Positions 1 to 60,692 of a stretch of 64,000 nt of DNA are shown here, in pieces; within the stretch, counting starts at the first letter, position 1, and each line of letters begins with the position of its first letter. This DNA is from Crossaster papposus (Eukaryota; Echinodermata; Asteroidea; Velatida; Solasteridae). Both the position numbers and the translations under genes were made by a program. The DNA lies in the NCBI GenBank assembly GCA_037893245.1, contig JBAIAA010000751.1:1364001-1428000 (forward strand), written 5' to 3'. The notes beneath the pieces are model-generated. The model was given only the letters and a program-made list of their open reading frames with translations, was not told where the DNA came from and searched no databases.

Positions 1-4
1 CGTG

Positions 5-18
5 TTATTTAATTTAAG
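5..18 (+). promoter_or_regulatory. AT-rich TATA-like element upstream of SRP RNA (representative unit)
   Basis: The stretch TTATTTAATTTAAG lies about 27-40 bp before the SRP RNA start. Metazoan 7SL genes are polymerase III genes that depend on upstream as well as internal elements, so this is a candidate TATA-like box. It recurs at the same offset in nearly every unit. One block (35.8, 38.3, 40.8 and 41.6 kb) has TTCTTTAATTTAAG and one unit (48.3 kb) has TTATTTTATTTAAG. The role is inferred. Confidence 0.4.
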
Positions 19-44
19 ACATTTAAGGTTCGCTTCTTCTAGCG

Positions 45-355
45 GCCGGGTGTAGTAGCGTGCGCCTGTAATCCAGTGACACTAGGAGGCCGGGGTTGGT
101 GAATCGCTTGAGGCCGGGAGCAATGTGGTGTCGTCCTGCTCATGACGATCGGGTGTCCAGGCTAAGCTCTGCATCGACATGGTAGGCCCGGCGGAGGTTG
201 GGTACCATACCAGGTTGACTAAGGAGGGGTGTACCGGCTCAGGGCGGGTAACGCAGCAGGCAAAAGCTCCCATGTGGAGCAGTAAGCAGGATCACACTTG
301 AGAATGGGAGGCTTCTCACAACCCGGACAACATGGCGAGACCCAATTCTTTATTT
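45..355 (+). ncRNA. 7SL: SRP RNA (7SL), copy 1, reference copy
   Basis: RNA scaffold of the signal recognition particle, which pauses and targets ribosomes making secretory proteins to the ER. The sequence aligns along its whole length with metazoan 7SL. The 5' Alu domain starts GCCGGG and carries UGUAAU (67-72), the conserved SRP9/14-binding turn, followed by a B-box-like AATCGCTTGAGGCC. The S domain has helix 6 closed by a GGAG tetraloop (193-196, GNAR type, SRP19 contact) on a six-pair stem. Helix 8 has ACC (233-235) opposite AGCAGG (255-260), the SRP54-binding internal loop, and a GTAA apical loop (248-251). The 3' Alu strand GGCGAGACCC is followed by a T7 terminator (353-359). The exact 3' end is uncertain by a few bases. 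Presence of the S domain excludes an Alu-type SINE. Pol III transcription is inferred. Confidence 0.92.
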
Positions 356-359
356 TTTT
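353..359 (+). terminator. Pol III T-run terminator of SRP RNA (representative unit)
   Basis: Seven T residues follow directly on the SRP RNA 3' end. A short hairpin, CAAAAC (374-379) with GTTTTG (385-390), lies just downstream. The T run is broken by a G in the copies starting at 31684 and 32515 (TTTTTGT) and in those starting at 54982, 56915 and 59409 (TTGTTTT), and is extended to eight Ts in the copy starting at 58577. Confidence 0.75.
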
Positions 360-466
360 CCGGATTTATTTGTCAAAACGTCTGGTTTTGTTTTATTTTC
401 TTGGTAGAACGATGAGGACCACCTTTTTTAACCAAAGCATTCAAATTTTAAATGGAGTTAACAGTA
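360..466 (+). other. AT-rich intergenic spacer, no gene seen (representative unit)
   Basis: Spacer between the SRP RNA terminator and the tRNA-like relic. It holds a 6-bp hairpin (374-390) and a second T6 run (424-429) and no recognisable RNA family. It is as well conserved between units as the genes are, as expected from array homogenisation. Confidence 0.6.
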
Positions 467-555
467 GTCGTAAAGGCCAAGTGGTTAAAGAGTTGGACGT
501 TATGGCGCCGAATATCTGTATCGCATTGAATATCCCGGGTACAAGTTCCTTCTAA
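467..555 (+). pseudogene. Degenerate tRNA-like segment, related to the array's tRNA-Ser (representative unit)
   Basis: The first 32 bases match the 5' half of the unit's own tRNA-Ser at 26 positions, including GTCGT, GGCC, AGTGGTTAA and GTTGGAC, so an A-box-like block is kept. The 3' part has GGTACAAGTTCC where a B box GGTTCGAATCC would be, with one extra base, and no clean anticodon stem-loop, T stem or 7-bp acceptor stem can be drawn. I read it as an old tRNA-Ser duplicate decayed before the unit was amplified. It sits 422 bases after each SRP RNA start (424 in the CC-insertion copies), once per unit. It could still recruit TFIIIC; that is speculation. Confidence 0.6.
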
Positions 556-697
556 GAAACACGTTCTGCTGACCGATATGGTAAATTTCAGCAGTATTTG
601 TCCGTTTTCGGTTTCTTGTGTATTCCCTGCGCACCAAAAACTAATGAACGTTCTTGATCATCTTACTGGGATCACGCTCAAAACAGCAAATTAAGGA
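556..697 (+). other. Spacer upstream of tRNA-Ser, no gene seen (representative unit)
   Basis: Holds a perfect 7-bp inverted repeat, CTGCTGA (566-572) and TCAGCAG (588-594), with a 15-nt loop, and a short CCG-TTTT-CGG hairpin nearby. AT-rich sequence (CAAATTAAGGA) abuts the tRNA 5' end. No known RNA family is recognised. Confidence 0.55.
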
Positions 698-704
698 GTC
701 GTGG

Positions 705-715
705 TGGCCGAGTGG
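705..715 (+). promoter_or_regulatory. tRNA internal A box (representative unit)
   Basis: TGGCCGAGTGG fits the TRGYNNANNGG A-box consensus at the usual place over the D arm. TFIIIC binding is known for the family. Confidence 0.8.
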
Positions 716-757
716 TTAAGGCGTTGGACTCGAAATCCAATGGGATTTTCCCGCGCA

Positions 758-768
758 GGTTCGAATCC
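758..768 (+). promoter_or_regulatory. tRNA internal B box (representative unit)
   Basis: GGTTCGAATCC is a perfect B box over the T arm. It is unchanged in all copies I inspected, including the copy with a deleted variable arm. Confidence 0.85.
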
Positions 769-788
769 TGTCTACGACGATGACATTA

Positions 789-793
789 TTTTT
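789..793 (+). terminator. Pol III T-run terminator of tRNA-Ser (representative unit)
   Basis: TTTTT begins 10 bases after the tRNA 3' end, which separates the tRNA transcript from the downstream SRP RNA. It is reduced to TTTT in the unit whose tRNA starts at 28182. Confidence 0.75.
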
Positions 794-875
794 GGTTTCT
801 TTCACCGTGCTGTATTTCATGGTTTATACACCGTGTTATTTAATTTAAGACATTTAAGGTTCGCTTCTTCTAGCG

Positions 876-1186
876 GCCGGGTGTAGTAGCGTGCGCCTGT
901 AATCCAGTGACACTAGGAGGCCGGGGTTGGTGAATCGCTTGAGGCCGGGAGCAATGTGGTGTCGTCCTGCTCATGACGATCGGGTGTCCAGGCTAAGCTC
1001 TGCATCGACATGGTAGGCCCGGCGGAGGTTGGGTACCATACCAGGTTGACTAAGGAGGGGTGTACCGGCTCAGGGCGGGTAACGCAGCAGGCAAAAGCTC
1101 CCATGTGGAGCAGTAAGCAGGATCACGCTTGAGAATGGGAGGCTTCTCACAACCCGGACAACATGGCGAGACCCAATTCTTTATTT
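876..1186 (+). ncRNA. 7SL: SRP RNA, copy 2
   Basis: Reference type; the only difference noticed is GATCACGC for GATCACAC in the 3' arm. Confidence 0.9.
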
Positions 1187-1528
1187 TTTTCCGGATTTAT
1201 TTGTCAAAACGTCTGGTTTTGTTTTATTTTCTTGGTAGAACGATGAGGACCACCTTTTTTAACCAAAGCATTCAAATTTGAAATGGAGTTAACAGTAGTC
1301 GTAAAGGCCAAGTGGTTAAAGAGTTGGACGTTATGGCGCCGAATATCTGTATCGCATTGAATATCCCGGGTACAAGTTCCTTCTAAGAAACACGTTCTGC
1401 TGACCGATATGGTAAATTTCAGCAGTATTTGTCCGTTTTCGGTTTCTTGTGTATTCCCTGCGCACCAAAAACTAATGAACGTTCTTGATCATCTTACTGG
1501 GATCACGCCCAAAACAGCAAATTAAGGA

Positions 1529-1610
1529 GTCGTGGTGGCCGAGTGGTTAAGGCGTTGGACTCGAAATCCAATGGGATTTTCCCGCGCAGGTTCGAATCCT
1601 GTCTACGACG
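1529..1610 (+). tRNA. tRNA-Ser-CGA: tRNA-Ser (CGA), copy 2
   Basis: No difference from the reference copy seen in the tRNA body. Confidence 0.95.
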
Positions 1611-1706
1611 ATGACATTATTTTTGGTTTCTTTCACCGTGCTGTATTTCATGGTTTATACACCGTGTTATTTAATTTAAGACATTTAAGGTTCGCTTCTT
1701 CTAGCG

Positions 1707-2017
1707 GCCGGGTGTAGTAGCGTGCGCCTGTAATCCAGTGACACTAGGAGGCCGGGGTTGGTGAATCGCTTGAGGCCGGGAGCAATGTGGTGTCGTCCTG
1801 CTCATGACGATCGGGTGTCCAGGCTAAGCTCTGCATCGACATGGTAGGCCCGGCGGAGGTTGGGTACCATACCAGGTTGACTAAGGAGGGGTGTACCGGC
1901 TCAGGGCGGGTAACGCAGCAGGCAAAAGCTCCCATGTGGAGCAGTAAGCAGGATCACACTTGAGAATGGGAGGCTTCTCACAACCCGGACAACATGGCGA
2001 GACCCAATTCTTTATTT
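1707..2017 (+). ncRNA. 7SL: SRP RNA, copy 3
   Basis: Reference type. The downstream tRNA-like relic in this unit has two extra changes (TGTAGTTAAAAG). Confidence 0.9.
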
Positions 2018-2359
2018 TTTTCCGGATTTATTTGTCAAAACGTCTGGTTTTGTTTTATTTTCTTGGTAGAACGATGAGGACCACCTTTTTTAACCAAAGC
2101 ATTCAAATTTTAAATGTAGTTAAAAGTAGTCGTAAAGGCCAAGTGGTTAAAGAGTTGGACGTTATGGCGCCGAATATCTGTATCGCATTGAATATCCCGG
2201 GTACAAGTTCCTTCTAAGAAACACGTTCTGCTGACCGATATGGTAAATTTCAGCAGTATTTGTCCGTTTTCGGTTTCTTGTGTATTCCCTGCGCACCAAA
2301 AACTAATGAACGTTCTTGATCATCTTACTGGGATCACGCCCAAAACAGCAAATTAAGGA

Positions 2360-2441
2360 GTCGTGGTGGCCGAGTGGTTAAGGCGTTGGACTCGAAATCC
2401 AATGGGATTTTCCCGCGCAGGTTCGAATCCTGTCTACGACG
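2360..2441 (+). tRNA. tRNA-Ser-CGA: tRNA-Ser (CGA), copy 3
   Basis: Reference type; the spacer after it reads GGTTCATAC instead of GGTTTATAC, a marker shared by several later units. Confidence 0.95.
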
Positions 2442-2537
2442 ATGACATTATTTTTGGTTTCTTTCACCGTGCTGTATTTCATGGTTCATACACCGTGTTA
2501 TTTAATTTAAGACATTTAAGGTTCGCTTCTTCTAGCG

Positions 2538-2848
2538 GCCGGGTGTAGTAGCGTGCGCCTGTAATCCAGTGACACTAGGAGGCCGGGGTTGGTGAATCGC
2601 TTGAGGCCGGGAGCAATGTGGTGTCGTCCTGCTCATGACGATCGGGTGTCCAGGCTAAGCTCTGCATCGACATGGTAGGCCCGGCGGAGGTTGGGTACCA
2701 TACCAGGTTGACTAAGGAGGGGTGTACCGGCTCAGGGCGGGTAACGCCGCAGGCAAAAGCTCCCATGTGGAGCAGTAAGCAGGATCACACTTGAGAATGG
2801 GAGGCTTCTCACAACCCGGACAACATGGCGAGACCCAATTCTTTATTT
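2538..2848 (+). ncRNA. 7SL: SRP RNA, copy 4, helix 8 variant
   Basis: Carries GCCGCAGG where the reference has GCAGCAGG, changing the conserved AGCAGG strand of the SRP54-binding loop. Shared only with the copy at 29191. It may bind SRP54 poorly; that is inference. Confidence 0.88.
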
Positions 2849-3190
2849 TTTTCCGGATTTATTTGTCAAAACGTCTGGTTTTGTTTTATTTTTTTGGTAG
2901 AACGATGAGGACCACCTTTTTTAACCAAAGCATTCAAATTTTAAATGGAGTTAACAGTAGTCGTAAAGGCCAAGTGGTTAAAGAGTTGGACGTTATGGCG
3001 CCGAATATCTGTATCGCATTGAATATCCCGGGTACAAGTTCCTTCTAAGAAACACGTTCTGCTGACCGATATGGTAAATTTCAGCAGTATTTGTCCGTTT
3101 TCGGTTTCTTGTGTATTCCCTGCGCACCAAAAACTAATGAACGTTCTTGATCGTCTTACTGGGATCACGCCCAAAACAGCAAATTAAGGA

Positions 3191-3272
3191 GTCGTGGTGG
3201 CCGAGTGGTTAAGGCGTTGGACTCGAAATCCAATGGGATTTTCCCGCGCAGGTTCGAATCCTGTCTACGACG
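3191..3272 (+). tRNA. tRNA-Ser-CGA: tRNA-Ser (CGA), copy 4
   Basis: Reference type; the 5' flank carries GATCGTC instead of GATCATC. Confidence 0.95.
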
Positions 3273-3368
3273 ATGACATTATTTTTGGTTTCTTTCACCG
3301 TGCTGTATTTCATGGTTTATACACCGTGTTATTTAATTTAAGACATTTAAGGTTCGCTTCTTCTAGCG

Positions 3369-3679
3369 GCCGGGTGTAGTAGCGTGCGCCTGTAATCCAG
3401 TGACACTAGGAGGCCGGGGTTGGTGAATCGCTTGAGGCCGGGAGCAATGTGGTGTCGTCCTGCTCATGACGATCGGGTGTCCAGGCTAAGCTCTGCATCG
3501 ACAAGGTAGGCCCGGCGGAGGTTGGGTACCATACCAGGTTGACTAAGGAGGGGTGTACCGGCTCAGGGCGGGTAACGCAGCAGGCAAAAGCTCCCATGTG
3601 GAGCAGTAAGCAGGATCACACTTGAGAATGGGAGGCTTCTCACAACCCGGACAACATGGCGAGACCCAATTCTTTATTT
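3369..3679 (+). ncRNA. 7SL: SRP RNA, copy 5
   Basis: Has CGACAAGG for CGACATGG next to helix 6, a marker shared with the copies at 15060, 15891, 26698, 27529, 30022 and 30853. Confidence 0.9.
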
Positions 3680-4021
3680 TTTTCCGGATTTATTTGTCAA
3701 AACGTCTGGTTTTGTTTTATTTTCTTGGTAGAACGATGAGGACCACCTTTTTTAACCAAAGCATTCAAATTTTAAATGGAGTTAACAGTAGTCGTAAAGG
3801 CCAAGTGGTTAAAGAGTTGGACGTTTTGGCGCCGAATATCTGTATCGCATTGAATATCCCGGGTACAAGTTCCTTCTAAGAAACACGTTCTGCTGACCGA
3901 TATGGTAAATTTCAGCAGTATTTGTCCGTTTTCAGTTTCTTGTGTATTCCCTGCGCACCAAAAACTAATGAACGTTCTTGATCGTCTTACTGGGATCACG
4001 CCCAAAACAGCAAATTAAGGA

Positions 4022-4103
4022 GTCGTGGTGGCCGAGTGGTTAAGGCGTTGGACTCGAAATCCAATGGGATTTTCCCGCGCAGGTTCGAATCCTGTCTACG
4101 ACG
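4022..4103 (+). tRNA. tRNA-Ser-CGA: tRNA-Ser (CGA), copy 5, upstream of a LINE insertion
   Basis: Reference type. A LINE is inserted 47 bases after its 3' end, so this tRNA is separated from its SRP RNA by an extra 888 bp. Its own T5 terminator is intact. Confidence 0.95.
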
Positions 4104-4150
4104 ATGACATTATTTTTGGTTTCTTTCACCGTGCTGTATTTCATGGTTTA

Positions 4151-4588
4151 AATTCTCTATTATATGGTATAAATGAACAACTACTGGCAAAGCTCCAACG
4201 TGCTCAAAATGCTGCAGCACGCATGTTAACCCGCACTCGTAAATTTGATCATATTTCGCCAATTTTGAAACAACTACACTGGTTACCAATTCGTCAAAGA
4301 ATTCAATTTAAGCTACTTTTGCTCACTTGGAAATCACTTAATGCTATGGCACCAGTGTATATTAATGAACTTCTTTCTCCATATATTCCAAAACGCACTT
4401 TGAGATCTGCTGACAAAATTCTTCTGACTGTCCCTAGAACTGTTTCGTCGTATGGTGATCGTGGATTTTATGCAGCTGCTCCCAAGCTTTGGAATGCCTT
4501 GCCATTCGAACTTCGCAGTTGTAGTTCCATCAATGTTTTCAAAAAGTTGTTGAAAACTCATTTATTTGAAACTACTTATAATATTTGA
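4151..4588 (+). pseudogene. C-terminal fragment of LINE ORF2 (reverse transcriptase tail)
   Basis: Open frame to TGA at 4586-4588. It shows the conserved C-terminal block of CR1/L2-type ORF2: LQRAQNAAARMLTRTRKFDH, then LHWLPIRQRIQFKLLLLTWK, ALNAMAP-like SLNAMAP, YGDRGFYAAAPKLWNALP and a final FKKLLKTHLF. Endonuclease and catalytic reverse transcriptase domains are absent. The frame stays open upstream into the tRNA by chance; that part is not coding. No internal stop or frameshift is seen, which suggests a fairly recent insertion. Confidence 0.88.
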
Positions 4589-5030
4589 TTGTTTTTGCAA
4601 AACATTTTATTGTGATTTATGTACTCATTTTGAGCTTTTACTTGATGTCTTTAATGCGATTTCTGGTATCGCATTGCTGACACATACCTTAATACTACAT
4701 GTATGTTCGGCCATTTTTTCTCATTTTGGTCGGGCAGGAATCAATTATTGCTGTTAAGTTGTTGTAACTGCTAATTCTGGTCTTCTCCTCTCTTTGCTTG
4801 TTGGCCATGTGCAGCTGGGCAGTGTGTGTTGGTACTGTGATATCCTCTTTGATCTTGTAGGGTCACATTATTGATCTTGAATTGCCTTTATGTTTTATTT
4901 ATTGTTGCATTTTATTTTGGTTCATTATTTTTCCTTTGTCATGTTTGTGTTTTATGTTGCGCCTCGGAATAGGTTTTCTCTAGATAGATGGCGCATTATA
5001 AATGCTTTATATTATTATTATTTTATTATT
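4589..5030 (+). other. LINE 3' UTR with ATT-rich tail
   Basis: No gene. T-rich sequence closes with CTCTAGATAGATGGCGC, ATTATAAATGC and a run of ATT triplets (about 5010-5030). CR1/L2-type elements end in short microsatellites rather than long poly(A). Confidence 0.7.
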
Positions 5031-5087
5031 ATGGTTTATACACCGTGTTATTTAATTTAAGACGTTTAAGGTTCGCTTCTTCTAGCG

Positions 5088-5398
5088 GCCGGGTGTAGTA
5101 GCGTGCGCCTGTAATCCAGTGACACTAGGAGGCCGGGGTTGGTGAATCGCTTGAGGCCGGGAGCAATGTGGTGTCGTCCTGCTCATGACGATCGGGTGTC
5201 CAGGCTAAGCTCTGCATCGACATGGTAGGCCCGGCGGAGGTTGGGTACCATACCAGGTTGACTAAGGAGGGGTGTACCGGCTCAGGGCGGGTAACGCAGC
5301 AGGCAAAAGCTCCCATGTGGAGCAGTAAGCAGGATCACACTTGAGAATGGGTGGCTTCTCACAACCCGGACAACATGGCGAGACCCAATTCTTTATTT
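5088..5398 (+). ncRNA. 7SL: SRP RNA, copy 6, downstream of the LINE
   Basis: Intact gene. The TATA-like region and about 50 bp of 5' flank are kept after the LINE, with one change (GACGTTTAAG). The 3' arm has GGGTGGCTTC for GGGAGGCTTC, a marker that recurs at 8412, 11736, 16722, 20048 and 23374. Confidence 0.9.
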
Positions 5399-5740
5399 TT
5401 TTCCGGATATATTTGTCAAAACGTCTGGTTTTGTTTTATTTTCTTGGTAGAACGATGAGGACCACCTTTTTTAACCAAAGCATTCAAATTTTAAATGGAG
5501 TTAACAGTAGTCGTAAAGGCCAAGTGGTTAAAGAGTTGGACGTTATGGCGCCGAATATCTGTATCGCATTGAATATCCCGGGTACAAGTTCCTTCTAAGA
5601 AACACGTTCTGCTGACCGATATGGTAAATTTCAGCAGTATTTGTCCGTTTTCGGTTTCTTGTGTATTCCCTGCGCACCAAAAACTAATGAACGTTCTTGA
5701 TCATCTTACTGGGATCACGCCCAAAACAGCAAATTAAGGA

Positions 5741-5822
5741 GTCGTGGTGGCCGAGTGGTTAAGGCGTTGGACTCGAAATCCAATGGGATTTTCCCGCGCA
5801 GGTTCGAATCCTGTCTACGACG
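5741..5822 (+). tRNA. tRNA-Ser-CGA: tRNA-Ser (CGA), copy 6
   Basis: Reference type. Confidence 0.95.
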
Positions 5823-5918
5823 ATGACATTATTTTTGGTTTCTTTCACCGTGCTGTATTTCATGGTTTATACACCGTGTTATTTAATTTAAGACATTTAA
5901 GGTTCGCTTCTTCTAGCG

Positions 5919-6229
5919 GCCGGGTGTAGTAGCGTGCGCCTGTAATCCAGTGACACTAGGAGGCCGGGGTTGGTGAATCGCTTGAGGCCGGGAGCAATGT
6001 GGTGTCGTCCTGCTCATGACGATCGGGTGTCCAGGCTAAGCTCTGCATCGACATGGTAGGCCCGGCGGAGGTTGGGTACCATACCAGGTTGACTAAGGAG
6101 GGGTGTACCGGCTCAGGGCGGGTAACGCAGCAGGCAAAAGCTCCCATGTGGAGCAGTAAGCAGGATCACACTTGAGAATGGGAGGCTTCTCACAACCCGG
6201 ACAACATGGCGAGACCCAATTCTTTATTT
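5919..6229 (+). ncRNA. 7SL: SRP RNA, copy 7
   Basis: Reference type. Confidence 0.9.
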
Positions 6230-6571
6230 TTTTCCGGATTTATTTGTCAAAACGTCTGGTTTTGTTTTATTTTCTTGGTAGAACGATGAGGACCACCTTT
6301 TTTAACCAAAGCATTCAAATTTTAAATGGAGTTAACAGTAGTCGTAAAGGCCAAGTGGTTAAAGAGTTGGACGTTATGGCGCCGAATATCTGTATCGCAT
6401 TGAATATCCCGGGTACAAGTTCCTTCTAAGAAACACGTTCTGCTGACCGATATGGTAAATTTCAGCAGTATTTGTCCGTTTTCGGTTTCTTGTGTATTCC
6501 CTGCGCACCAAAAACTAATGAACGTTCTTCATCATCTTACTGGGATCACGCCCAAAACAGCAAATTAAGGA

Positions 6572-6653
6572 GTCGTGGTGGCCGAGTGGTTAAGGTGTTG
6601 GACTCGAAATCCAATGGGATTTTCCCGCGCAGGTTCGAATCCTGTCTACGACG
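6572..6653 (+). tRNA. tRNA-Ser-CGA: tRNA-Ser (CGA), copy 7, D-stem variant
   Basis: AAGGTGTTGG replaces AAGGCGTTGG, turning the G10-C25 pair into G-T. Still foldable. Same variant at 13220, 18206, 21532 and 24858. Confidence 0.92.
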
Positions 6654-6749
6654 ATGACATTATTTTTGGTTTCTTTCACCGTGCTGTATTTCATGGTTCA
6701 TACACCGTGTTATTTAATTTAAGACATTTAAGGTTCGCTTCTTCTAGCG

Positions 6750-7060
6750 GCCGGGTGTAGTAGCGTGCGCCTGTAATCCAGTGACACTAGGAGGCCGGGG
6801 TTGGTGAATCGCTTGAGGCCGGGAGCAATGTGGTGTCGTCCTGCTCATGACGATCGGGTGTCCAGGCTAAGCTCTGCATCGACATGGTAGGCCCGGCGGA
6901 GGTTGGGTACCATACCAGGTTGACTAAGGAGGGGTGTACCGGCTCAGGGCGGGTAACGCAGCAGGCAAAAGCTCCCATGTGGAGCAGTAAGCAGGATCAC
7001 ACTTGAGAATGGGAGGCTTCTCACAACCCGGACAACATGGCGAGACCCAATTCTTTATTT
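6750..7060 (+). ncRNA. 7SL: SRP RNA, copy 8
   Basis: Reference type. Confidence 0.9.
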
Positions 7061-7402
7061 TTTTCCGGATTTATTTGTCAAAACGTCTGGTTTTGTTTTA
7101 TTTTCTTGGTAGAACGATGAGGACCACCTTTTTTAACCAAAGCATTCAAATTTTAAATGGAGTTAACAGTAGTCGTAAAGGCCAAGTGGTTAAAGAGTTG
7201 GACGTTATGGCGCCGAATATCTGTATCGCATTGAATATCCCGGGTACAAGTTCCTTCTAAGAAACACGTTCTGCTGACCGATATGGTAAATTTCAGCAGT
7301 ATTTGTCCGTTTTCGGTTTCTTGTGTATTCCCTGCGCACCAAAAACTAATGAACGTTCTTGATCATCTTACTGGGATCACGCCCAAAACAGCAAATTAAG
7401 GA

Positions 7403-7484
7403 GTCGTGGTGGCCGAGTGGTTAAGGCGTTGGACTCGAAATCCAATGGGATTTTTCCGCGCAGGTTCGAATCCTGTCTACGACG
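7403..7484 (+). tRNA. tRNA-Ser-CGA: tRNA-Ser (CGA), copy 8, variable-arm variant
   Basis: Variable arm reads GGGATTTTTCC, with a C-to-T change that turns one G-C of its stem into G-T. Same change at 10727, four units on. Confidence 0.93.
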
Positions 7485-7580
7485 ATGACATTATTTTTGG
7501 TTTCTTTCACCGTGCTGTATTTCATGGTTTATACACCGTGTTATTTAATTTAAGACATTTAAGGTTCGCTTCTTCTAGCG

Positions 7581-7891
7581 GCCGGGTGTAGTAGCGTGCG
7601 CCTGTAATCCAGTGATACTAGGAGGCCGGGGTTGGTGAATCGCTTGAGGCCGGGAGCAATGTGGTGTCGTCCTGCTCATGACGATCGGGTGTCCAGGCTA
7701 AGCTCTGCATCGACATGGTAGGCCCGGCGGAGGTTGGGTACCATACCAGGTTGACTAAGGAGGGGTGTACCGGCTCAGGGCGGGTAACGCAGCAGGCAAA
7801 AGCTCCCATGTGGAGCAGTAAGCAGGATCACACTTGAGAATGGGAGGCTTCTCACAACCCGGACAACATGGCGAGACCCAATTCTTTATTT
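7581..7891 (+). ncRNA. 7SL: SRP RNA, copy 9
   Basis: Has GTGATACTA for GTGACACTA in the Alu domain (also at 10905). Confidence 0.9.
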
Positions 7892-8233
7892 TTTTCCGCA
7901 TTTATTTGTCAAAACGTCTGGTTTTGTTTTATTTTCTTGGTAGAACGATGAGGACCACCTTTTTTAACCAAAGCATTCAAATTTTAAATGGAGTTAACAG
8001 TAGTCGTAAAGGCCAAGTGGTTAAAGAGTTGGACGTTATGGCGCCGAATATCTGTATCACATTGAATATCCCGGGTACAAGTTCCTTCTAAGAAACACGT
8101 TCTGCTGACCGATATGGTAAATTTCAGCAGTATTTGTCCGTTTTTGGTTTCTTGTGTATTCCCTGCGCACCAAAAACTAATGAACGTTCTTGATCATCTT
8201 ACTGGGATCACGCCCAAAACAGCAAATTAAGGA

Positions 8234-8315
8234 GTCGTGGTGGCCGAGTGGTTAAGGCGTTGGACTCGAAATCCAATGGGATTTTCCCGCGCAGGTTCGA
8301 ATCCTGTCTACGACG
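8234..8315 (+). tRNA. tRNA-Ser-CGA: tRNA-Ser (CGA), copy 9
   Basis: Reference type; followed by the block marker AAGGCTCGC in the spacer. Confidence 0.95.
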
Positions 8316-8411
8316 ATGACATTATTTTTGGTTTCTTTCACCGTGCTGTATTTCATGGTTCATACACCGTGTTATTTAATTTAAGACATTTAAGGCTCGC
8401 TTCTTCTAGCG

Positions 8412-47404: not shown

Positions 47405-47500
47405 ATGACATTATTTTTGGTTTCTTTCACCGTGCTGTATTTTATGGTTTATACACCGTGTTATTTAATTTAAGACATTTAAGGTTCGCTTCTTCTAGCG

Positions 47501-52310: not shown

Positions 52311-52392
52311 GTCGTGGTGGCCGAGTGGTTAAGGCGTTGGACTCGAAATCCAATGGGATTTTCCCGCGCAGGTTCGAATCCTGTCTACGACG
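52311..52392 (+). tRNA. tRNA-Ser-CGA: tRNA-Ser (CGA), copy 62
   Basis: Reference type. Confidence 0.95.
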
Positions 52393-52488
52393 ATGACATT
52401 ATTTTTGGTTTCTTTCACCGTGCTGTATTTCATGGTTTATACACCGTGTTATTTAATTTAAGACATTTAAGGTTCGCTTCTTCTAGCG

Positions 52489-52799
52489 GCCGGGTGTAGT
52501 AGCGTGCGCCTGTAATCCAGTGACACTAGGAGACCGGGGTTGGTGAATCGCTTGAGGCCGGGAGCAATGTGGTGTCGTCCTGCTCATGACGATCGGGTGT
52601 CCAGGCTAAGCTCTGCATCGACATGGTAGGCCCGGCGGAGGTTGGGTACCATACCAGGTTGACTAAGGAGGGGTGTACCGGCTCAGGGCGGGTAACGCAG
52701 CAGGCAAAAGCTCCCATGTGGAGCAGTAAGCAGGATCACACTTGAGAATGGGAGGCTTCTCACAACCCGGACAACATGGCGAGACCCAATTCTTTATTT
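52489..52799 (+). ncRNA. 7SL: SRP RNA, copy 63
   Basis: Private change GGAGACCGGGG in the Alu domain. Confidence 0.89.
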
Positions 52800-53141
52800 T
52801 TTTCCGGATTTATTTGTCAAAACGTCTGGTTTTGTTTTATTTTCTTGGTAGAACGATGAGGACCACCTTTTTTAACCAAAGCATTCAAATTTTAAATGGA
52901 GTTAACAGTAGTCGTAAAGGCCAAGTGGTTAAAGAGTTGGACGTTATGGCGCCGAATATCTGTATCGCATTGAATATCCCGGGTACAAGTTCCTTCTAAG
53001 AAACACGTTCTGCTGACCGATATGGTAAATTTCCGCAGTATTTGTCCGTTTTCGGTTTCTTGTGTATTCCCTGCGCACCAAAAACTAATGAACGTTCTTG
53101 ATCGTCTTACTGGGATCACGCCCAAAACAGCAAATTAAGGA

Positions 53142-53223
53142 GTCGTGGTGGCCGAGTGGTTAAGGCGTTGGACTCGAAATCCAATGGGATTTTCCCGCGC
53201 AGGTTCGAATCCTGTCTACGACG
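53142..53223 (+). tRNA. tRNA-Ser-CGA: tRNA-Ser (CGA), copy 63
   Basis: Reference type; TTTCCGCAG in the 5' spacer. Confidence 0.95.
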
Positions 53224-53319
53224 ATGACATTATTTTTGGTTTCTTTCACCGTGCTGTATTTCATGGTTTATACACCGTGTTATTTAATTTAAGACATTTA
53301 AGGTTCGCTTCTTCTAGCG

Positions 53320-53630
53320 GCCGGGTGTAGTAGCGTGCGCTTGTAATCCAGTGACACTAGGAGGCCGGGGTTGGTGAATCGCTTGAGGCCGGGAGCAATG
53401 TGGTGTCGTCCTGCTCATGACGATCGGGTGTCCAGGCTAAGCTCTGCATCGACATGGTAGGCCCGGCGGAGGTTGGGTACCATACCAGGTTGACTAAGGA
53501 GGGGTGTACCGGCTCAGGGCGGGTAACGCAGCAGGCAAAAGCTCCCATGTGGAGCAGTAAGCAGGATCACACTTGAGAATGGGAGGCTTCTCACAACCCG
53601 GACAACATGGCGAGACCCAATTCTTTATTT
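53320..53630 (+). ncRNA. 7SL: SRP RNA, copy 64
   Basis: GCGCTTGTAATCC, partner of the copy at 49996. Confidence 0.9.
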
Positions 53631-53972
53631 TTTTCCGGATTTATTTGTCAAAACGTCTGGTTTTGTTTTATTTTCTTGGTAGAACGATGAGGACCACCTT
53701 TTTTAACCAAAGCATTCAAATTTTAAATGGAGTTAACAGTAGTCGTAAAGGCCAAGTGGTTAAAGAGTTGGACGTTATGGCGCCGAATATCTGTATCGCA
53801 TTGAATATCCCGGGTACAAGTTCCTTCTAAGAAACACGTTCTGCTGACCGATATGATAAATTTCAGCAGTATTTGTCCGTTTTCGGTTTCTTGTGTATTC
53901 CCTGCGCACCAAAAACTAATGAACGTTCTTGATCATCTTACTGGGATCACGCCCAAAACAGCAAATTAAGGA

Positions 53973-54054
53973 GTCGTGGTGGCCGAGTGGTTAAGGCGTT
54001 GGACTCGAAATCCAATGGGATTTTCCCGCGCAGGTTCGAATCCTGTCTACGACG
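53973..54054 (+). tRNA. tRNA-Ser-CGA: tRNA-Ser (CGA), copy 64
   Basis: Reference type; AAGGTTGGC spacer marker, 5' spacer GATATGATAAA. Confidence 0.95.
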
Positions 54055-54150
54055 ATGACATTATTTTTGGTTTCTTTCACCGTGCTGTATTTCATGGTTT
54101 ATACACCGTGTTATTTAATTTAAGACATTTAAGGTTGGCTTCTTCTAGCG

Positions 54151-54461
54151 GCCGGGTGTAGTAGCGTGCGCCTGTAATCCAGTGACACTAGGAGGCCGGG
54201 GTTGGTGAATCGCTTGAGGCCGGGAGCAATGTGGTGTCGTCCTGCTCATGACAATCGGGTGTCCAGGCTAAGCTCTGCATCGACATGGTAGGCCCGGCGG
54301 AGGTTGGGTACCATACCAGGTTGACTAAGGAGGGGTGTACCGGCTCAGGGCGGGTAACGCAGCAGGCAAAAGCTCCCATGTGGAGCAGTAAGCAGGATCA
54401 CACTTGAGAATGGGAGGCTTCTCACAACCCGGACAACATGGCGAGACCCAATTCTTTATTT
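54151..54461 (+). ncRNA. 7SL: SRP RNA, copy 65
   Basis: GACAATCGGG variant; the uninterrupted sister of the MITE-bearing copy at 55813. Confidence 0.9.
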
Positions 54462-54803
54462 TTTTCCGGATTTATTTGTCAAAACGTCTGGTTTTGTTTT
54501 ATTTTCTTGGTAGAACGATGAGGACCACCTTTTTTAACCAAAGCATTCAAATTTTAAATGGAGTTAACAGTAGTCGTAAAGGCCAAGTGGTTAAAGAGTT
54601 GGACGTTATGGCGCCGAATATCTGTATCGCATTGAATATCCCGGGTACAAGTTCCTTCTAAGAAACACGTTCTGCTGACCGATATGATAAATTTCAGCAG
54701 TATTTGTCCGTTTTCGGTTTCTTGTGTATTCCCTGCGCACCAAAAACTAATGAACGTTCTTGATCATCTTACTGGGATCACGCCCAAAACAGCAAATTAA
54801 GGA

Positions 54804-54885
54804 GTCGTGGTGGCCGAGTGGTTAAGGCGTTGGACTCGAAATCCAATGGGATTTTCCCGCGCAGGTTCGAATCCTGTCTACGACG
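54804..54885 (+). tRNA. tRNA-Ser-CGA: tRNA-Ser (CGA), copy 65
   Basis: tRNA body unchanged; 3' flank GACGATTACATT, shared with 56737. Confidence 0.95.
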
Positions 54886-54981
54886 ATTACATTATTTTTG
54901 GTTTCTTTCACCGTGCTGTATTTCATGGTTTATACACCGTGTTATTTAATTTAAGACATTTAAGGTTGGCTTCTTCTAGCG

Positions 54982-55292
54982 GCCGGGTGTAGTAGCGTGC
55001 GCCTGTAATCCAGTGACACTAGGAGGCCGGGGTTGGTGAATCGCTTGAGGCCGGGAGCAATGTGGTGTCGTCCTGCTCATGACGATCGGGTGTCCAGGCT
55101 AAGCTCTGCATCGACATGGTAGGCCCGGCGGAGGTTGGGTACCATACCAGGTTGACTAAGGAGGGGTGTACCGGCTCAGGGCGGGTAACGCAGCAGGCAA
55201 AAGCTCCCATGTGGAGCAGTAAGCAGGATCACACTTGAGAATGGGAGGCTTCTCACAACCCGGACAACATGGCGAGACCCAATTCTTTATTG
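54982..55292 (+). ncRNA. 7SL: SRP RNA, copy 66, interrupted terminator
   Basis: RNA body reference type; the terminator reads TATTGTTTTCC, leaving at most four Ts. Confidence 0.88.
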
Positions 55293-55634
55293 TTTTCCGG
55301 ATTTATTTGTCAAAACGTCTGGTTTTGTTTTATTTTCTTGGTAGAACGATGAGGACCACCTTTTTTAACCAAAGCATTCAAATTTTAAATGGAGTTAACA
55401 GTAGTCGTAAAGGCCAAGTGGTTAAAGAGTTGGACGTTATGGCGCCAAATATCTGTATCGCATTGAATATCCCGGGTACAAGTTCCTTCTAAGAAACACG
55501 TTCTGCTGACCGATATGGTAAATTTCAGCAGTATTTGTCCGTTTTCGGTTTCTTGTGTATTCCCTGCGCACCAAAAACTAATGAACGTTCTTGATCATCT
55601 TACTGGGATCACGCCCAAAACAGCAAATTAAGGA

Positions 55635-55716
55635 GTCGTGGTGGCCGAGTGGTTAAGGCGTTGGACTCGAAATCCAATGGGATTTTCCCGCGCAGGTTCG
55701 AATCCTGTCTACGACG
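55635..55716 (+). tRNA. tRNA-Ser-CGA: tRNA-Ser (CGA), copy 66
   Basis: Reference type; upstream of the MITE-split SRP RNA. Confidence 0.95.
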
Positions 55717-55812
55717 ATGACATTATTTTTGGTTTCTTTCACCGTGCTGTATTTCATGGTTTATACACCGTGTTATTTAATTTAAGACATTTAAGGTTGG
55801 CTTCTTCTAGCG

Positions 55813-56394
55813 GCCGGGTGTAGTAGCGTGTGCCTGTAATCCAGTGACACTAGGAGGCCGGGGTTGGTGAATCGCTTGAGGCCGGGAGCAATGTGGTGTC
55901 GTCCTGCTCATGACAATCGGGTGTCCAGGCTAAGCTCTGCATCGACATGGTAGGCCCGGCGGAGGTTGGGTACCATACCAGGTTGACTAAGGAGCACTGA
56001 CCTCTATACATGGACAGATCATCCATTGTTTCATTTTGAAGTCGGCATGCAGAGAAGTGCAACATGGCGTCACTGCTGTGAGCCAATGAAATGTCCAGGT
56101 GTAGAGTTCAGTTGGTTGGTAAATCCACTGACCTCTACAACTGGACATTTCATTGGCTCACAGCAGTGACGCCATGTTGCACTTCCAGTTCGCGCCGACT
56201 TCAAGTGTTAGCACAGCAGAATATGGACAATGATCTGTCCAGGTGTTGAGGTCAGTGCTAAGGAGGGGTGTACCGGCTCAGGGCGGGTAACGCAGCAGGC
56301 AAAAGCTCCCATGTGGAGCAGTAAGCAGGATCACACTTGAGAATGGGAGGCTTCTCACAACCCGGACAACATGGCGAGACCCAATTCTTTATTT
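55813..56394 (+). pseudogene. 7SL: SRP RNA, copy 67, split by a MITE
   Basis: The Alu domain and the first part of the S domain (55813-55994) are separated from helix 8 and the 3' end (56266-56394) by 271 bp, made of a MITE plus one target duplication. The break falls in CTAAGGAG, between helix 6 and helix 8, so this copy should not give a functional SRP RNA. It also has GCGTGTGCCTG and GACAATCGGG. Confidence 0.9.
55995..56257. mobile_element. 263-bp foldback MITE with 8-bp TSD, hAT-like
   Basis: Flanked by a perfect 8-bp direct repeat CTAAGGAG (55987-55994, 56258-56265). The ends are inverted: CACTGACCTC then TGGACAGATCAT at the left, and the complement at the right, with three mismatches in about 28 bp. 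The complementarity continues inward: TGCAACATGGCGTCACTGCT and the segment around it on the left arm returns as its reverse complement on the right, so nearly the whole element folds on itself with arms of about 120 bp. It encodes no protein. An 8-bp TSD and CA...TG ends fit hAT elements; P-like is an alternative. Confidence 0.87.
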
Positions 56395-56736
56395 TTTTCC
56401 GGATTTATTTGTCAAAACGTCTGGTTTTGTTTTATTTTCTTGGTAGAACGATGAGGACCACCTTTTTTAACCAAAGCATTCAAATTTTAAATGGAGTTAA
56501 CAGTAGTCGTAAAGGCCAAGTGGTTAAAGAGTTGGACGTTATGGCGCCGAATATCTGTATCGCATTGAATATCCCGGGTACAAGTTCCTTCTAAGAAACA
56601 CGTTCTGCTGACCGATATGATAAATTTCAGCAGTATTTGTCCGTTTTCGGTTTCTTGTGTATTCCCTGCGCACCAAAAATTAATGAACGTTCTTGATCAT
56701 CTTACTGGGATCACGCCCAAAACAGCAAATTAAGGA

Positions 56737-56818
56737 GTCGTGGTGGCCGAGTGGTTAAGGCGTTGGACTCGAAATCCAATGGGATTTTCCCGCGCAGGTT
56801 CGAATCCTGTCTACGACG
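56737..56818 (+). tRNA. tRNA-Ser-CGA: tRNA-Ser (CGA), copy 67
   Basis: tRNA body unchanged; GACGATTACATT flank. Confidence 0.95.
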
Positions 56819-56914
56819 ATTACATTATTTTTGGTTTCTTTCACCGTGCTGTATTTCATGGTTTATACACCGTGTTATTTAATTTAAGACATTTAAGGTT
56901 GGCTTCTTCTAGCG

Positions 56915-57225
56915 GCCGGGTGTAGTAGCGTGCGCCTGTAATCCAGTGACACTAGGAGGCCGGGGTTGGTGAATCGCTTGAGGCCGGGAGCAATGTGGTG
57001 TCGTCCTGCTCATGACGATCGGGTGTCCAGGCTAAGCTCTGCATCGACATGGTAGGCCCGGCGGAGGTTGGGTACCATACCAGGTTGACTAAGGAGGGGT
57101 GTACCGGCTCAGGGCGGGTAACGCAGCAGGCAAAAGCTCCCATGTGGAGCAGTAAGCAGGATCACACTTGAGAATGGGAGGCTTCTCACAACCCGGACAA
57201 CATGGCGAGACCCAATTCTTTATTG
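56915..57225 (+). ncRNA. 7SL: SRP RNA, copy 68, interrupted terminator
   Basis: TATTGTTTTCC terminator, sister of the copy at 54982. Confidence 0.88.
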
Positions 57226-57567
57226 TTTTCCGGATTTATTTGTCAAAACGTCTGGTTTTGTTTTATTTTCTTGGTAGAACGATGAGGACCACCTTTTTTA
57301 ACCAAAGCATTCAAATTTTAAATGGAGTTAACAGTAGTCGTAAAGGCCAAGTGGTTAAAGAGTTGGACGTTATGGCGCCAAATATCTGTATCGCATTGAA
57401 TATCCCGGGTACAAGTTCCTTCTAAGAAACACGTTCTGCTGACCGATATGGTAAATTTCAGCAGTATTTGTCCGTTTTCGGTTTCTTGTGTATTCCCTGC
57501 GCACCAAAAACTAATGAACGTTCTTGATCATCTTACTGGGATCACGCCCAAAACAGCAAATTAAGGA

Positions 57568-57649
57568 GTCGTGGTGGCCGAGTGGTTAAGGCGTTGGACT
57601 CGAAATCCAATGGGATTTTCCCGCGCAGGTTCGAATCCTGTCTACGACG
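57568..57649 (+). tRNA. tRNA-Ser-CGA: tRNA-Ser (CGA), copy 68
   Basis: Reference type. Confidence 0.95.
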
Positions 57650-57745
57650 ATGACATTATTTTTGGTTTCTTTCACCGTGCTGTATTTCATGGTTTATACA
57701 CCGTGTTATTTAATTTAAGACATTTAAGGTTCGCTTCTTCTAGCG

Positions 57746-58056
57746 GCCGGGTGTAGTAGCGTGCGCCTGTAATCCAGTGACACTAGGAGGCCGGTGTTGG
57801 TGAATCGCTTGATGCCGGGAGCAATGTGGTGTCGTCCTGCTCATGACGATCGGGTGTCCAGGCTAAGCTCTGCATCGACATGGTAGGCCCGGCGGAGGTT
57901 GGGTACCATACCAGGTTGACTAAGGAGGGGTGTACCGGCTCAGGGCGGGTAACGCAGCAGGCAAAATCTCCCATGTGGAGCAGTAAGCAGGATCACACTT
58001 GAGAATGGGAGGCTTCTCACAACCCGGACAACATGGCGAGACCCAATTCTTTATTT
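57746..58056 (+). ncRNA. 7SL: SRP RNA, copy 69
   Basis: Three private changes: GGCCGGTGTTGG, CTTGATGCCGG and GCAAAATCTCCC; the last alters the 3' strand of the helix 8 base. Likely weakened. Confidence 0.85.
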
Positions 58057-58398
58057 TTTTCCGGATTTATTTGTCAAAACGTCTGGTTTTGTTTTATTTT
58101 CTTGGTAGAACGATGAGGACCACCTTTTTTAACCAAAGCATTCAAATTTTAAATGGAGTTAACAGTAGTCGTAAAGGCCAAGTGGTTAAAGAGTTGGACG
58201 TTATGGCGCCGAATATCTGTATCGCATTGAATATCCCAGGTACAAGTTCCTTCTAAGAAACACGTTCTGCTGACCGATATGGTAAATTTCAGCAGTATTT
58301 GTCCGTTTTCGGTTTCTTGTGTATTCCCTGCGCACCAAAAACTAATGAACGTTCTTGATCATCTTACTGGGATCACTCCCAAAACAGCAAATTAATGA

Positions 58399-58480
58399 GT
58401 CGTGGTGGCCGAGTGGTTAAGGCGTTGGACTCGAAATCCAATGGGATTTTCCCGCGCAGGTTCGAATCCTGTCTACGACG
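58399..58480 (+). tRNA. tRNA-Ser-CGA: tRNA-Ser (CGA), copy 69
   Basis: tRNA body unchanged; 5' flank ATTAATGA. Confidence 0.95.
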
Positions 58481-58576
58481 ATGACATTATTTTTGGTTTC
58501 TTTCACCGTGCTGTATTTCATGGTTTATACACCGTGTTATTTAATTTAAGACATTTAAGGTTCGCTTCTTCTAGCG

Positions 58577-58888
58577 GCCGGGTGTAGTAGCGTGCGCCTG
58601 TAATCCAGTGACACTAGGAGGCCGGGGTTGGTGAATCGCTTGAGGCCGGGAGCAATGTGGTGTCGTCCTGCTCATGACGATCGGGTGTCCAGGCTAAGCT
58701 CTGCATCGACATGGTAGGCCCGGCGGAGGTTGGGTACCATACCAGGTTGACTAAGGAGGGGTGTACCGGCTCAGGGCGGGTAACGCAGCAGGCAAGAGCT
58801 CCCATGTGGAGCAGTAAGCAGGATCACACTTGAGAATGGGAGGCTTCTCACAACCCGGACAACATGGCGAGACCCAATTCTTTATTTT
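58577..58888 (+). ncRNA. 7SL: SRP RNA, copy 70
   Basis: GGCAAGAGCTCC, and an eight-T terminator that makes this unit 832 bp. Confidence 0.88.
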
Positions 58889-59230
58889 TTTTCCGGATTT
58901 ATTTGTCAAAACGTCTGGTTTTGTTTTATTTTCTTGGTAGAACGATGAGGACCACCTTTTTTAACCAAAGCATTCAAATTTTAAATGGAGTTAACAGTAG
59001 TCGTAAAGGCCAAGTGGTTAAAGAGTTGGACGTTATGGCGCCAAATATCTGTATCGCATTGAATATCCCGGGTACAAGTTCCTTCTAAGAAACACGTTCT
59101 GCTGACCGATATGGTAAATTTCAGCAGTATTTGTCCGTTTTCGGTTTCTTGTGTATTCCCTGCGCACCAAAAACTAATGAACGTTCTTGATCATCTTACT
59201 GGGATCACGCCCAAAACAGCAAATTAAGGA

Positions 59231-59312
59231 GTCGTGGTGGCCGAGTGGTTAGGGCGTTGGACTGGAAATCCAATGGGATTTTCCCGCGCAGGTTCGAATC
59301 CTGTCTACGACG
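59231..59312 (+). tRNA. tRNA-Ser-GGA: tRNA-Ser, anticodon changed to GGA, copy 70
   Basis: The anticodon loop reads CTGGAAA instead of CTCGAAA, so the anticodon (59264-59266) is GGA, which would read UCC and UCU, still serine. A second change, GGTTAGGG for GGTTAAGG, lies in the D loop region. Stems, variable arm and discriminator are intact, so the gene could function and keep serine identity, which SerRS does not read from the anticodon. Eukaryotes normally read UCU/UCC with an AGA (inosine) anticodon. Private to this copy. Confidence 0.9.
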
Positions 59313-59408
59313 ATGACATTATTTTTGGTTTCTTTCACCGTGCTGTATTTCATGGTTTATACACCGTGTTATTTAATTTAAGACATTTAAGGTTCGCTTC
59401 TTCTAACG

Positions 59409-59719
59409 GCCGGGTGTAGTAGCGTGCGCCTGTAATCCAGTGACACTAGGAGGCCGGGGTTGGTGAATCGCTTGAGGCCGGGAGCAATGTGGTGTCGTCC
59501 TGCTCATGACGATCGGGTGTCCAGGCTAAGCTCTGCATCGACATGGTAGGCCCGGCGGAGGTTGGGTACCATACCAGGTTGACTAAGGAGGGGTGTACCG
59601 GCTCAGGGCGGGTAACGCAGCAGGCAAAAGCTCCCATGTGGAGCAGTAAGCAGGATCACACTTGAGAATGGGAGGCTTCTCACAACCCGGACAACATGGC
59701 GAGACCCAATTCTTTATTG
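59409..59719 (+). ncRNA. 7SL: SRP RNA, copy 71
   Basis: RNA body reference type; 5' flank CTAACG; terminator TATTGTTTTCC. Confidence 0.88.
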
Positions 59720-60061
59720 TTTTCCGGATTTATTTGTCAAAACGTCTGGTTTTGTTTTATTTTCTTGGTAGAACGATGAGGACCACCTTTTTTAACCAAA
59801 GCATTCAAATTTTAAATGGAGTTAACAGTAGTCGTAAAGGCCAAGTGGTTAAAGAGTTGGACGTTATGGCGCCGAATATCTGTATCGCATTGAATATCCC
59901 GGGTACAAGTTCCTTCTGAGAAACACGTTCTGCTGACCGATATGGTAAATTTCAGCAGTATTTGTCCGTTTTCGGTTTCTTGTGTATTCCCTGCGCACCA
60001 AAAACTAATGAACGTTCTTGATCATCTTACTGGGATCACGCCCAAAACAGCAAATTAAGGA

Positions 60062-60130
60062 GTCGTGGTGGTCGAGTGGTTAAGGCGTTGGACTCGAAAT
60101 CCAGCGCAGGTTCGAATCCTGTCTACGACG
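60062..60130 (+). pseudogene. tRNA-Ser-CGA: tRNA-Ser copy 71, variable arm deleted
   Basis: Only 69 nt: 13 nt spanning the end of the anticodon stem and most of the variable arm are missing (AAATCCAGCGCAGG). GGTCGAG for GGCCGAG also weakens the D stem. SerRS recognises the long variable arm, so serine charging should be lost although A and B boxes and terminator remain. Confidence 0.9.
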
Positions 60131-60226
60131 ATGACATTATTTTTGGTTTCTTTCACCGTGCTGTATTTCATGGTTTATACACCGTGTTATTTAATTTAAG
60201 ACATTTAAGGTTCGCTTCTTCTAGCG

Positions 60227-60537
60227 GCCGGGTGTAGTAGCGTGCGCCTGTAATCCAGTGACACTAGGAGGCCGGGGTTGGTGAATCGCTTGAGGCCGGG
60301 AGCAATGTGGTGTCGTCCTGCTCATGACGATCGGGTGTCCAGGCTAAGCTCTGCATCGACATGGTAGGCCCGGCGGAGGTTGGGTACCATACCAGGTTGA
60401 CTAAGGAGGGGTGTACCGGCTCAGGGCGGGTAACGCAGCAGGCAAAAGCTCCCATGTGGAGCAGTAAGCAGGATCACACTTGAGAATGGGAGGCTTCTCA
60501 CAACCCGGACAACATGGCGAGACCCAATTCTTTATTT
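60227..60537 (+). ncRNA. 7SL: SRP RNA, copy 72, last of the array
   Basis: Reference type with an intact T7 terminator. Its downstream spacer has ACCATCTTTTTT for ACCACCTTTTTT. Confidence 0.9.
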
Positions 60538-60648
60538 TTTTCCGGATTTATTTGTCAAAACGTCTGGTTTTGTTTTATTTTCTTGGTAGAACGATGAGGA
60601 CCATCTTTTTTAACCAAAGCATTCAAATTTTAAATGGAGTTAACAGTA

Positions 60649-60692
60649 GTCGTAAAGGCCAAGTGGTTAAAGAGTTGGACGTTATGGCGCCG
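60649..60692 (+). pseudogene. Last tRNA-like relic, cut off by the retroelement junction
   Basis: Follows the array sequence up to GTTATGGCGCCG at 60692, then switches to the 155-bp repeat of the DIRS-like material. Only the tRNA-Ser-like 5' half remains. Confidence 0.8.

Follow-up and report, generated by a model that had tools for sequence, protein, structure and literature searches.

Signal recognition particle (SRP) RNA is usually regarded as one RNA made from few genes. A contig of the 1.02-Gb assembly of the sea star Crossaster papposus raises the question of what it means when such genes stand in a long tandem array, nearly every one with a serine tRNA gene beside it. The stretch analysed here (the window) comprises 64,000 nucleotides, C751:1364001-1428000, and is largely made up of alternating SRP RNA and tRNA-Ser(CGA) genes. 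On balance, sequence comparison leads us to favour the explanation that the array is an amplified and functional second class of SRP RNA, co-arrayed with tRNA-Ser(CGA), which would be transcribed by RNA polymerase III (pol III) and would provide a bulk supply.

A search of the whole window with Rfam cmscan returned 71 matches to RF00017 (Metazoa_SRP), all on the forward strand and each spanning model positions 1-299, with scores of 183.5-207.1 bits and E values of 1e-48 or better, together with 71 matches to RF00005 (tRNA) on the same strand (48.6-62.6 bits). Both kinds of gene, which a preliminary description had called from the letters of the DNA and had proposed to check with covariance models, were thus accepted by these models. 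The gathering score of RF00017 is 70, and a 72nd SRP copy, split by an insert, lies below that cut-off. ARAGORN reported 70 tRNA-Ser genes, 69 with the anticodon CGA and one with GGA, and a 71st tRNA with a shortened variable arm was listed by Rfam only. When the split SRP copy and the shortened tRNA are included, the 72 SRP RNA and 71 tRNA-Ser genes counted in the preliminary description are right. BLAST of one unit against the window gave a chain of units from base 1 to base 60694, nearly all of 831 or 833 bp and about 99% identical to one another, which bears out the described head-to-tail alternation on one strand. The E values of the SRP matches and the identity between units rule out a chance origin. 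Tandem Repeats Finder reported nothing for the array, because the longest period that it handles is 500. The array does not end at 60692, as had been proposed: an insertion begins at base 60695 and the array unit picks up again at C751:1428604, past the window edge.

The unit consists, in this order, of an SRP gene (307 nt), a run of seven T, a spacer, a tRNA-Ser-like relic, a second spacer, a tRNA-Ser(CGA) gene (82 nt), a run of five T and the remainder of a 96-bp spacer (Table 1). UGUAA in the Alu domain, the GGAG loop of helix 6 and the CAGG/AGCAG symmetric loop of helix 8 were recognised by eye in the cmscan alignments of both the representative unit and a solo SRP gene described below. 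For counts across units we aligned 174 of the 189 intervals between neighbouring copies; the 15 intervals outside 810-845 bp were left out, so that the most rearranged units are missing from these counts. The tRNA B box is exact in 168 of the aligned units, the A box in 166, and the anticodon CGA was recognised by pattern in 164. The tRNA genes thus show the cloverleaf, the long variable arm, the anticodon and the boxes of tRNA-Ser(CGA). As had been described, structure and pol III signals are intact, in that the consensus unit keeps the SRP structure, the tRNA boxes and the T-run terminators.

The array does not hold all the SRP RNA genes of this genome. A genome search with RF00017, in which 26 of 6626 first-look candidates were scored and weak SRP pseudogenes could go unseen, gave as its top match a solo gene at C225:750911-751209, with 269.1 bits versus 183.5-211.7 bits for the scored array copies. 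In a genome comparison with the DNA of the solo gene, for which 40 of 219 first-look candidates were scored, the gene itself came first at 100%, followed by copies of the array at 76%. An exact SRP core pattern fitting both types gave 95 + 64 matches genome-wide, namely 94 in the array on C751, 64 on C1205, a second contig that carries the array, and 1 on C225; no SRP gene outside the array and C225 was found with this pattern, which misses diverged copies. The 5S-like tandem arrangement of SRP RNA with tRNA-Ser in nearly every unit is therefore real, but the array is not the sole genomic source of SRP RNA. The genome may thus have two SRP RNA classes, one solo and one arrayed. We also considered 7SL-derived short interspersed elements (SINEs), which are dispersed high-copy derivatives of SRP RNA with an A-rich tail and a reduced S domain. 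High copy number is common to these SRP RNA-derived repeats and the array, whereas the copies described here are full length with the S domain, stand in tandem and carry a T run instead of an A tail. With the exact core pattern, which misses diverged copies, matches were confined to the two array contigs and the one solo gene, and a SINE origin was rejected on these grounds.

Solo and array RNAs were compared over the 120 base pairs of the Rfam structure. Forty-five pairs differ between the two RNAs. In 13 of them both bases changed and the pair is kept in either RNA, and in 17 one base changed with pairing retained; pairing is confined to the array RNA at 5, to the solo RNA at 6 (3 single and 3 double changes), and is absent from both RNAs at 4. 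Standard pairs number 98 in the array RNA and 99 in the solo RNA. From solo to array, random substitution with the same spectrum, simulated with sites treated as independent, would keep 2.7 double changes, and none of 5000 simulations reached the 13 found; nor did any of them reach 98 standard pairs, the simulated value being 75.4 (standard deviation 3.75). In the opposite direction, the double changes at paired positions leave the pair intact in 13 of 13 cases, and the 99 standard pairs compare with 79.4 simulated. Some of the compensations are on the array side with respect to the Rfam consensus, for example at pairs 86-261 and 107-244. Because 13 compensated pairs were found and 2.7 expected, both classes look as if they had long been selected as SRP RNA, the array type having diverged at about a quarter of its bases with its structure preserved.

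Several observations weigh against a functional array. The alignment behind the 13 compensations comes from the covariance model and is biased towards pairing, and part of the 13 lie on the solo side with respect to the Rfam consensus, for example 3-42 and 94-254. A four-base loop of helix 8 is a conserved feature of SRP RNA, though not a condition of an Rfam match; the solo RNA has it (GCG-GAAA-CGC), whereas the array RNA (GCG-GGUAA-CGC) is one base longer in this loop, one base above the model. Among 68 strongly conserved Rfam positions, the array RNA departs from 8 and the solo RNA from 3, those 3 being shared. The link to the host genome provided by a mobile element within the array (see below) covers C751 and does not extend to C225 with the solo gene. 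Within the array, the aligned units segregate at 79 of the 307 SRP gene positions, at 21 of the 82 tRNA positions and at 84 of 352 positions in the three spacers together (28 of 118, 32 of 138 and 24 of 96), so that sites are as dense in both genes as in the spacers (Fisher p 0.61). In addition, 45 of 83 SRP variants break a pair versus 36.6 expected, and 1991 of 2000 simulations gave as few or fewer. On the side of function, the consensus itself is intact, and 52 of the 174 units have the commonest SRP sequence in common.

As variants inside the array reveal no constraint, single array copies look dispensable, and the equal frequency of variants in genes and spacers makes it harder to maintain that each copy is important. 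The missing constraint is compatible with a highly redundant array as well as with one that has recently become less important. The same counts would suit a nonfunctional megasatellite, that is, an SRP-tRNA segment amplified as a satellite whose consensus would be intact since amplification and homogenisation were recent. Variants as dense in genes as in spacers, pair-breaking variants that are not avoided and a tRNA-like relic homogenised together with the genes all point that way. We nevertheless regard a megasatellite of this kind as rather unlikely, given the compensatory evolution relative to the solo gene, the A and B boxes and T runs that are intact in 162-168 of the 174 aligned units, and the concentration of the genome's tRNA-Ser(CGA) core matches in the array.

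The array continues beyond the window. On C751 it runs from 1338884, where the units are diverged, to the contig end at 1447490, where it runs off the end, and it fills C1205 (60,454 bp), which has both its ends inside the array. The C751 stretch holds 120 full SRP copies and C1205 another 71, giving 191 when seven partial SRP BLAST rows are left out; this is the assembled count, both contigs ending inside the array. C1205 could be an unplaced piece or another haplotype. Each contig has a private variant of the SRP gene with a two-base insertion. The C751 variant, near SRP position 184, is found in 17 units, at window positions 19215 and 22541 and, for 15 of the 17, within 33346-47809, a clustering that is a sign of local homogenisation; the C1205 variant, near SRP position 3, is found in 6 units. 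Self-alignment of the array gave 99.43% identity at a shift of four units versus 99.28-99.31% at one, two or three units, which corresponds to a four-unit higher-order repeat, and a shift of 15,030 bp paired 15.9-kb segments at 99.86%, an internal duplication of 15 kb. The higher-order repeat, the duplication and the diverged edge copies lead us to infer that unequal exchange spreads and homogenises the unit. With tandem arrays of 5S rRNA genes the locus shares the head-to-tail order on one strand, short homogenised units and pol III genes with terminators. It differs in having SRP RNA instead of 5S, a second pol III gene and gene variation that is not below that of the spacer, although the gene of 5S-like arrays is expected to be the more conserved of the two. 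Two further details of the array were recorded: the right end of C751 and base 1 of C1205 lie at the same unit position, 522, and a 600-bp unit interval at C751:1439720-1440319 has lost 231 bp internally, and with them the spacer in front of the tRNA.

An array of this kind might also be an artefact of assembly or belong to a contaminating organism. Both array contigs end inside the array, and the assembly also has a COX1-bearing, bacterial-looking contig (C8), which would agree with such an origin. However, variants private to units, insertions and large duplications are found within the array, which stands on two contigs, each with its own two-base insertion variant. Moreover, a 263-bp element resembling a miniature inverted-repeat transposable element (MITE), which splits the 72nd SRP copy, is 100% identical at 40 places spread over 34 other contigs, these 40 being the ones scored among 1145 first-look genome candidates. 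The element was probably active recently, and its identity on 34 other contigs makes C751 part of the host genome. We consider an artefact or a contaminant highly improbable.

The tRNA partner also deserves attention in its own right. An exact tRNA-Ser(CGA) core gave 183 matches genome-wide, 180 of them in the array; the other three are at C373:2643715, at C387:2546643 and in one reverse-strand match. This core misses CGA tRNAs with another D arm, and a pattern with a different anticodon stem gave 0 matches. Judged by the exact core, the array is almost the sole source of tRNA-Ser(CGA), so that the tRNA, which the preliminary description thought might merely be carried along, probably is not. 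By comparison, an exact tRNA-Ser(NGA) core gave 2442 matches genome-wide, of which 173 lie in the array stretches. The matches listed lie nearly all at C336:271182-311688, in a large tandem tRNA-Ser array in which neighbours are often about 150-153 bp apart and anticodons are UGA with some AGA; in a 700-base sample (C336:304501-305200), 5 of 5 tRNAs are Ser(TGA). The tRNA partner of the SRP RNA array is part of a wider tRNA-Ser pattern of the genome, because of the 2442 NGA core matches and the C336 array. A lone tRNA-Ser-like gene with a UCA anticodon, followed by a T run, was observed at C751:1336004-1336085, about 2.8 kb to the left of the array edge. ARAGORN labelled it "SeC", yet it is 82 nt long and 90.6% identical over 85 bases to the array tRNA stretch; it is possibly an opal-suppressor-like tRNA or a pseudogene.

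These numbers might mean that tRNA-Ser(CGA) is the main selected part of the unit and the SRP gene its passenger. The 180 of 183 core matches would agree with this. However, SRP RNA has its own compensatory history, the tRNA varies as much as the spacers, and tRNA-Ser(UGA), which is abundant elsewhere in the genome, could read the same codon as the CGA tRNA by wobble. Very high tRNA numbers have already been published for a sea star, with 6779 (PMC11090083) or 14926 (PMC10625585) tRNA genes reported for Asterias amurensis in the parts of these papers cited here, and they would fit selection on the tRNA. Taken as a whole, this evidence makes a passenger SRP gene unlikely. A human counterpart of tRNA amplification, as far as the cited part of PMC4041453 describes it, is the 7.3-kb tRNA variable-number tandem repeat at 1q23.3, with 9-43 units; it likewise has tRNA genes in tandem macrosatellite units, and differs from the present array, with its 0.83-kb units and 191 full SRP copies.

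The relic, which precedes the true tRNA in the unit, shares 26 of 32 bases with the 5′ part of that tRNA, and an A-box-like string is found in it in 167 of 174 units. It has no B-box match, no cloverleaf fold and no cmscan match at E 1. By eye, its start resembles the start of a C336 tRNA-Ser. Segregating sites are 13 of 90 in the relic versus 184 of 741 elsewhere in the unit (Fisher p 0.035), in one of six regions, chosen post hoc and with approximate boundaries. When a 104-base stretch over the relic was shuffled, 196 of 200 shuffles folded at least as well. A functional tRNA-like element was rejected on account of this folding and of the post hoc choice of the low-variation region.

The preliminary description had also suggested that the tRNA recruits pol III or acts as an insulator. 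Stated more fully, tRNA-Ser, and the relic with it, would act on the SRP gene from outside, either as an extragenic promoter or as an insulator, in the style of trypanosomatid 7SL and snRNA genes. In the representative unit the next SRP gene begins 96 bp past the tRNA. Both genes point in the same direction, and the A box of the tRNA lies 170 bp and its B box 118 bp upstream of the SRP gene. According to part of PMC4950102, trypanosomatid 7SL and snRNA genes have a divergent companion tRNA with box A 104-106 bp upstream, and a tRNA-like together with a tRNA controls U2 in Leishmania. The two systems share a tRNA upstream of the SRP RNA gene and a tRNA-like nearby, whereas the array has the same orientation instead of a divergent one, another spacing and a tandem arrangement, and is found in an animal. 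Besides, the relic, lacking a B-box match, ends more than 300 bp before the next SRP gene, and ARAGORN found no tRNA in the 10-kb locus around the solo gene. We consider such a role very doubtful, and the geometry of the unit, unlike that of trypanosomatids, lends it no support.

The two classes stand at separate loci, with one solo gene versus 191 full array copies at 76% identity, an architecture that calls to mind maternal and somatic RNA genes. By this analogy, the array would be an oocyte or early-embryo class and the C225 solo gene the somatic one, as in zebrafish 5S/45S and Xenopus 5S. In the cited parts of the zebrafish work, 2330 maternal versus 12 somatic 5S genes are given (PMC5513064) and the maternal loci are placed in a tRNA-rich region (PMC11075544). 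Both systems have a diverged class with many copies and, at another place, a class with few (PMC5513064 and PMC11075544, in part), whereas the RNA here is SRP RNA. The precedents are vertebrate and concern rRNA and snRNA, with 0 occurrences of SRP or 7SL in the main text of PMC11075544. What speaks for a maternal and somatic division is the architecture, and we hold a maternal-type SRP RNA to be possible, although on the whole unlikely.

Under the explanation that we favour, that of an amplified and functional second SRP RNA class, the unit would be a composite of pol III genes: a full SRP RNA gene with its T run, the tRNA-Ser-like relic, itself defunct, and a tRNA-Ser(CGA) gene that looks functional and again has its own T run. 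It probably arose inside or beside a tRNA-Ser array like others in the genome, hence the tRNA partner. The array SRP RNA would have split from the C225 solo class, with its structure kept by compensatory change, as the comparison of array and solo RNAs supports. Pol III would transcribe the genes one by one from their internal promoters, and the many copies would furnish large amounts of SRP RNA and CGA serine tRNA in cells, or at stages, where the demand for secretion or translation is high. If the supply role is true, the supply of one tRNA isoacceptor is tied to that of SRP RNA; the array also suggests that tRNA amplification in a sea-star genome can carry other pol III genes along. An extension of the maternal analogy, tentative and rather improbable, is that there are two signal recognition particles, a somatic one with the solo RNA and one for maternal or secretory bursts with the array RNA, encoded in ∼200 or more units along with nearly all tRNA-Ser(CGA). 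If true, it would extend the idea of maternal and somatic ribosomes to protein targeting. Specialised particles are directly testable, as array and solo RNAs differ at dozens of diagnostic bases (∼24%). Among the open-access PMC papers listed, none describes, by title or start of abstract, an SRP RNA array tied to a tRNA in an animal. No animal SRP RNA-tRNA array is described in the cited parts of PMC9734144 and PMC2770079, the latter giving eight SRP RNA candidates for Schistosoma mansoni.

Table 1. Positions, in window coordinates, of the array, its representative unit and the insertions and aberrant copies.
Feature	Position	Strand	Basis or remark
Window part of the SRP RNA/tRNA-Ser tandem array	1..60694	+	cmscan, BLAST; units mostly 831 or 833 bp
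Representative unit, 831 bp	45..875	+	BLAST
SRP RNA gene in the representative unit, 307 nt, spanning the full model	45..351	+	206.2 bits to Metazoa_SRP
T7 run 3′ of the SRP gene, pol III terminator-like	353..359	+	Longest run is 7 in 162/174 aligned units
tRNA-Ser-like relic, past the SRP gene and ahead of the true tRNA	467..559 (approximate)	+	Sequence comparison
tRNA-Ser(CGA) gene in the representative unit, with intact A and B boxes	698..779	+	cmscan, ARAGORN; next SRP gene 96 bp on
T5 run 3′ of the tRNA, terminator-like	789..793	+	T5 in 167/174 aligned units
Spacer insertion, 880 bp, flanked by ATGGTTTA at 4143-4150 and 5031-5038	4151..5030	+	BLAST
72nd SRP copy, split by an insert	55813..56390	+	BLAST
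MITE-like inverted-repeat transposon, 263 bp, within the 72nd SRP copy	55995..56257	.	Inverted repeats
tRNA with ARAGORN anticodon GGA, the only one in the window	59231..59312	+	ARAGORN
tRNA-Ser copy with shortened variable arm, 48.6 bits	60062..60130	+	cmscan (Rfam only)
Retrotransposon-like insertion with 155-bp direct repeats at 60693-60847 and 62720-62874	60695..64000, on to C751:1428603	+	Sequence

Two other insertions were classified by eye. The 880-bp spacer insertion looks like the 3′ end of a non-long-terminal-repeat retrotransposon similar to a long interspersed element, and the one that begins at 60695 looks DIRS-like.

Other features of the assembly were also recorded. Neighbouring 5S matches are often 217-219 bp apart, and none lies on C751 among the 47 scored of 26186 first-look candidates. 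On C8, a contig of more than 5 Mb, the COX1 match (5208663-5210009) falls in a 682-aa open frame, and C8 is probably a bacterial contig within the assembly. Code and gene order of the mitochondrial contig, C1841 (16,330 bp), indicate a sea star. Judged by eye, its COX1 translates well under the echinoderm mitochondrial code, in which AAA stands for Asn and ATA for Ile. Just upstream of it, on the opposite strand, lie nad1 and nad2 (by eye from the frames), two tRNA-Leu and tRNA-Tyr, the same placement of nad1, nad2 and tRNAs relative to COX1 as in the asteroid mitogenomes described in the cited part of PMC8933410.

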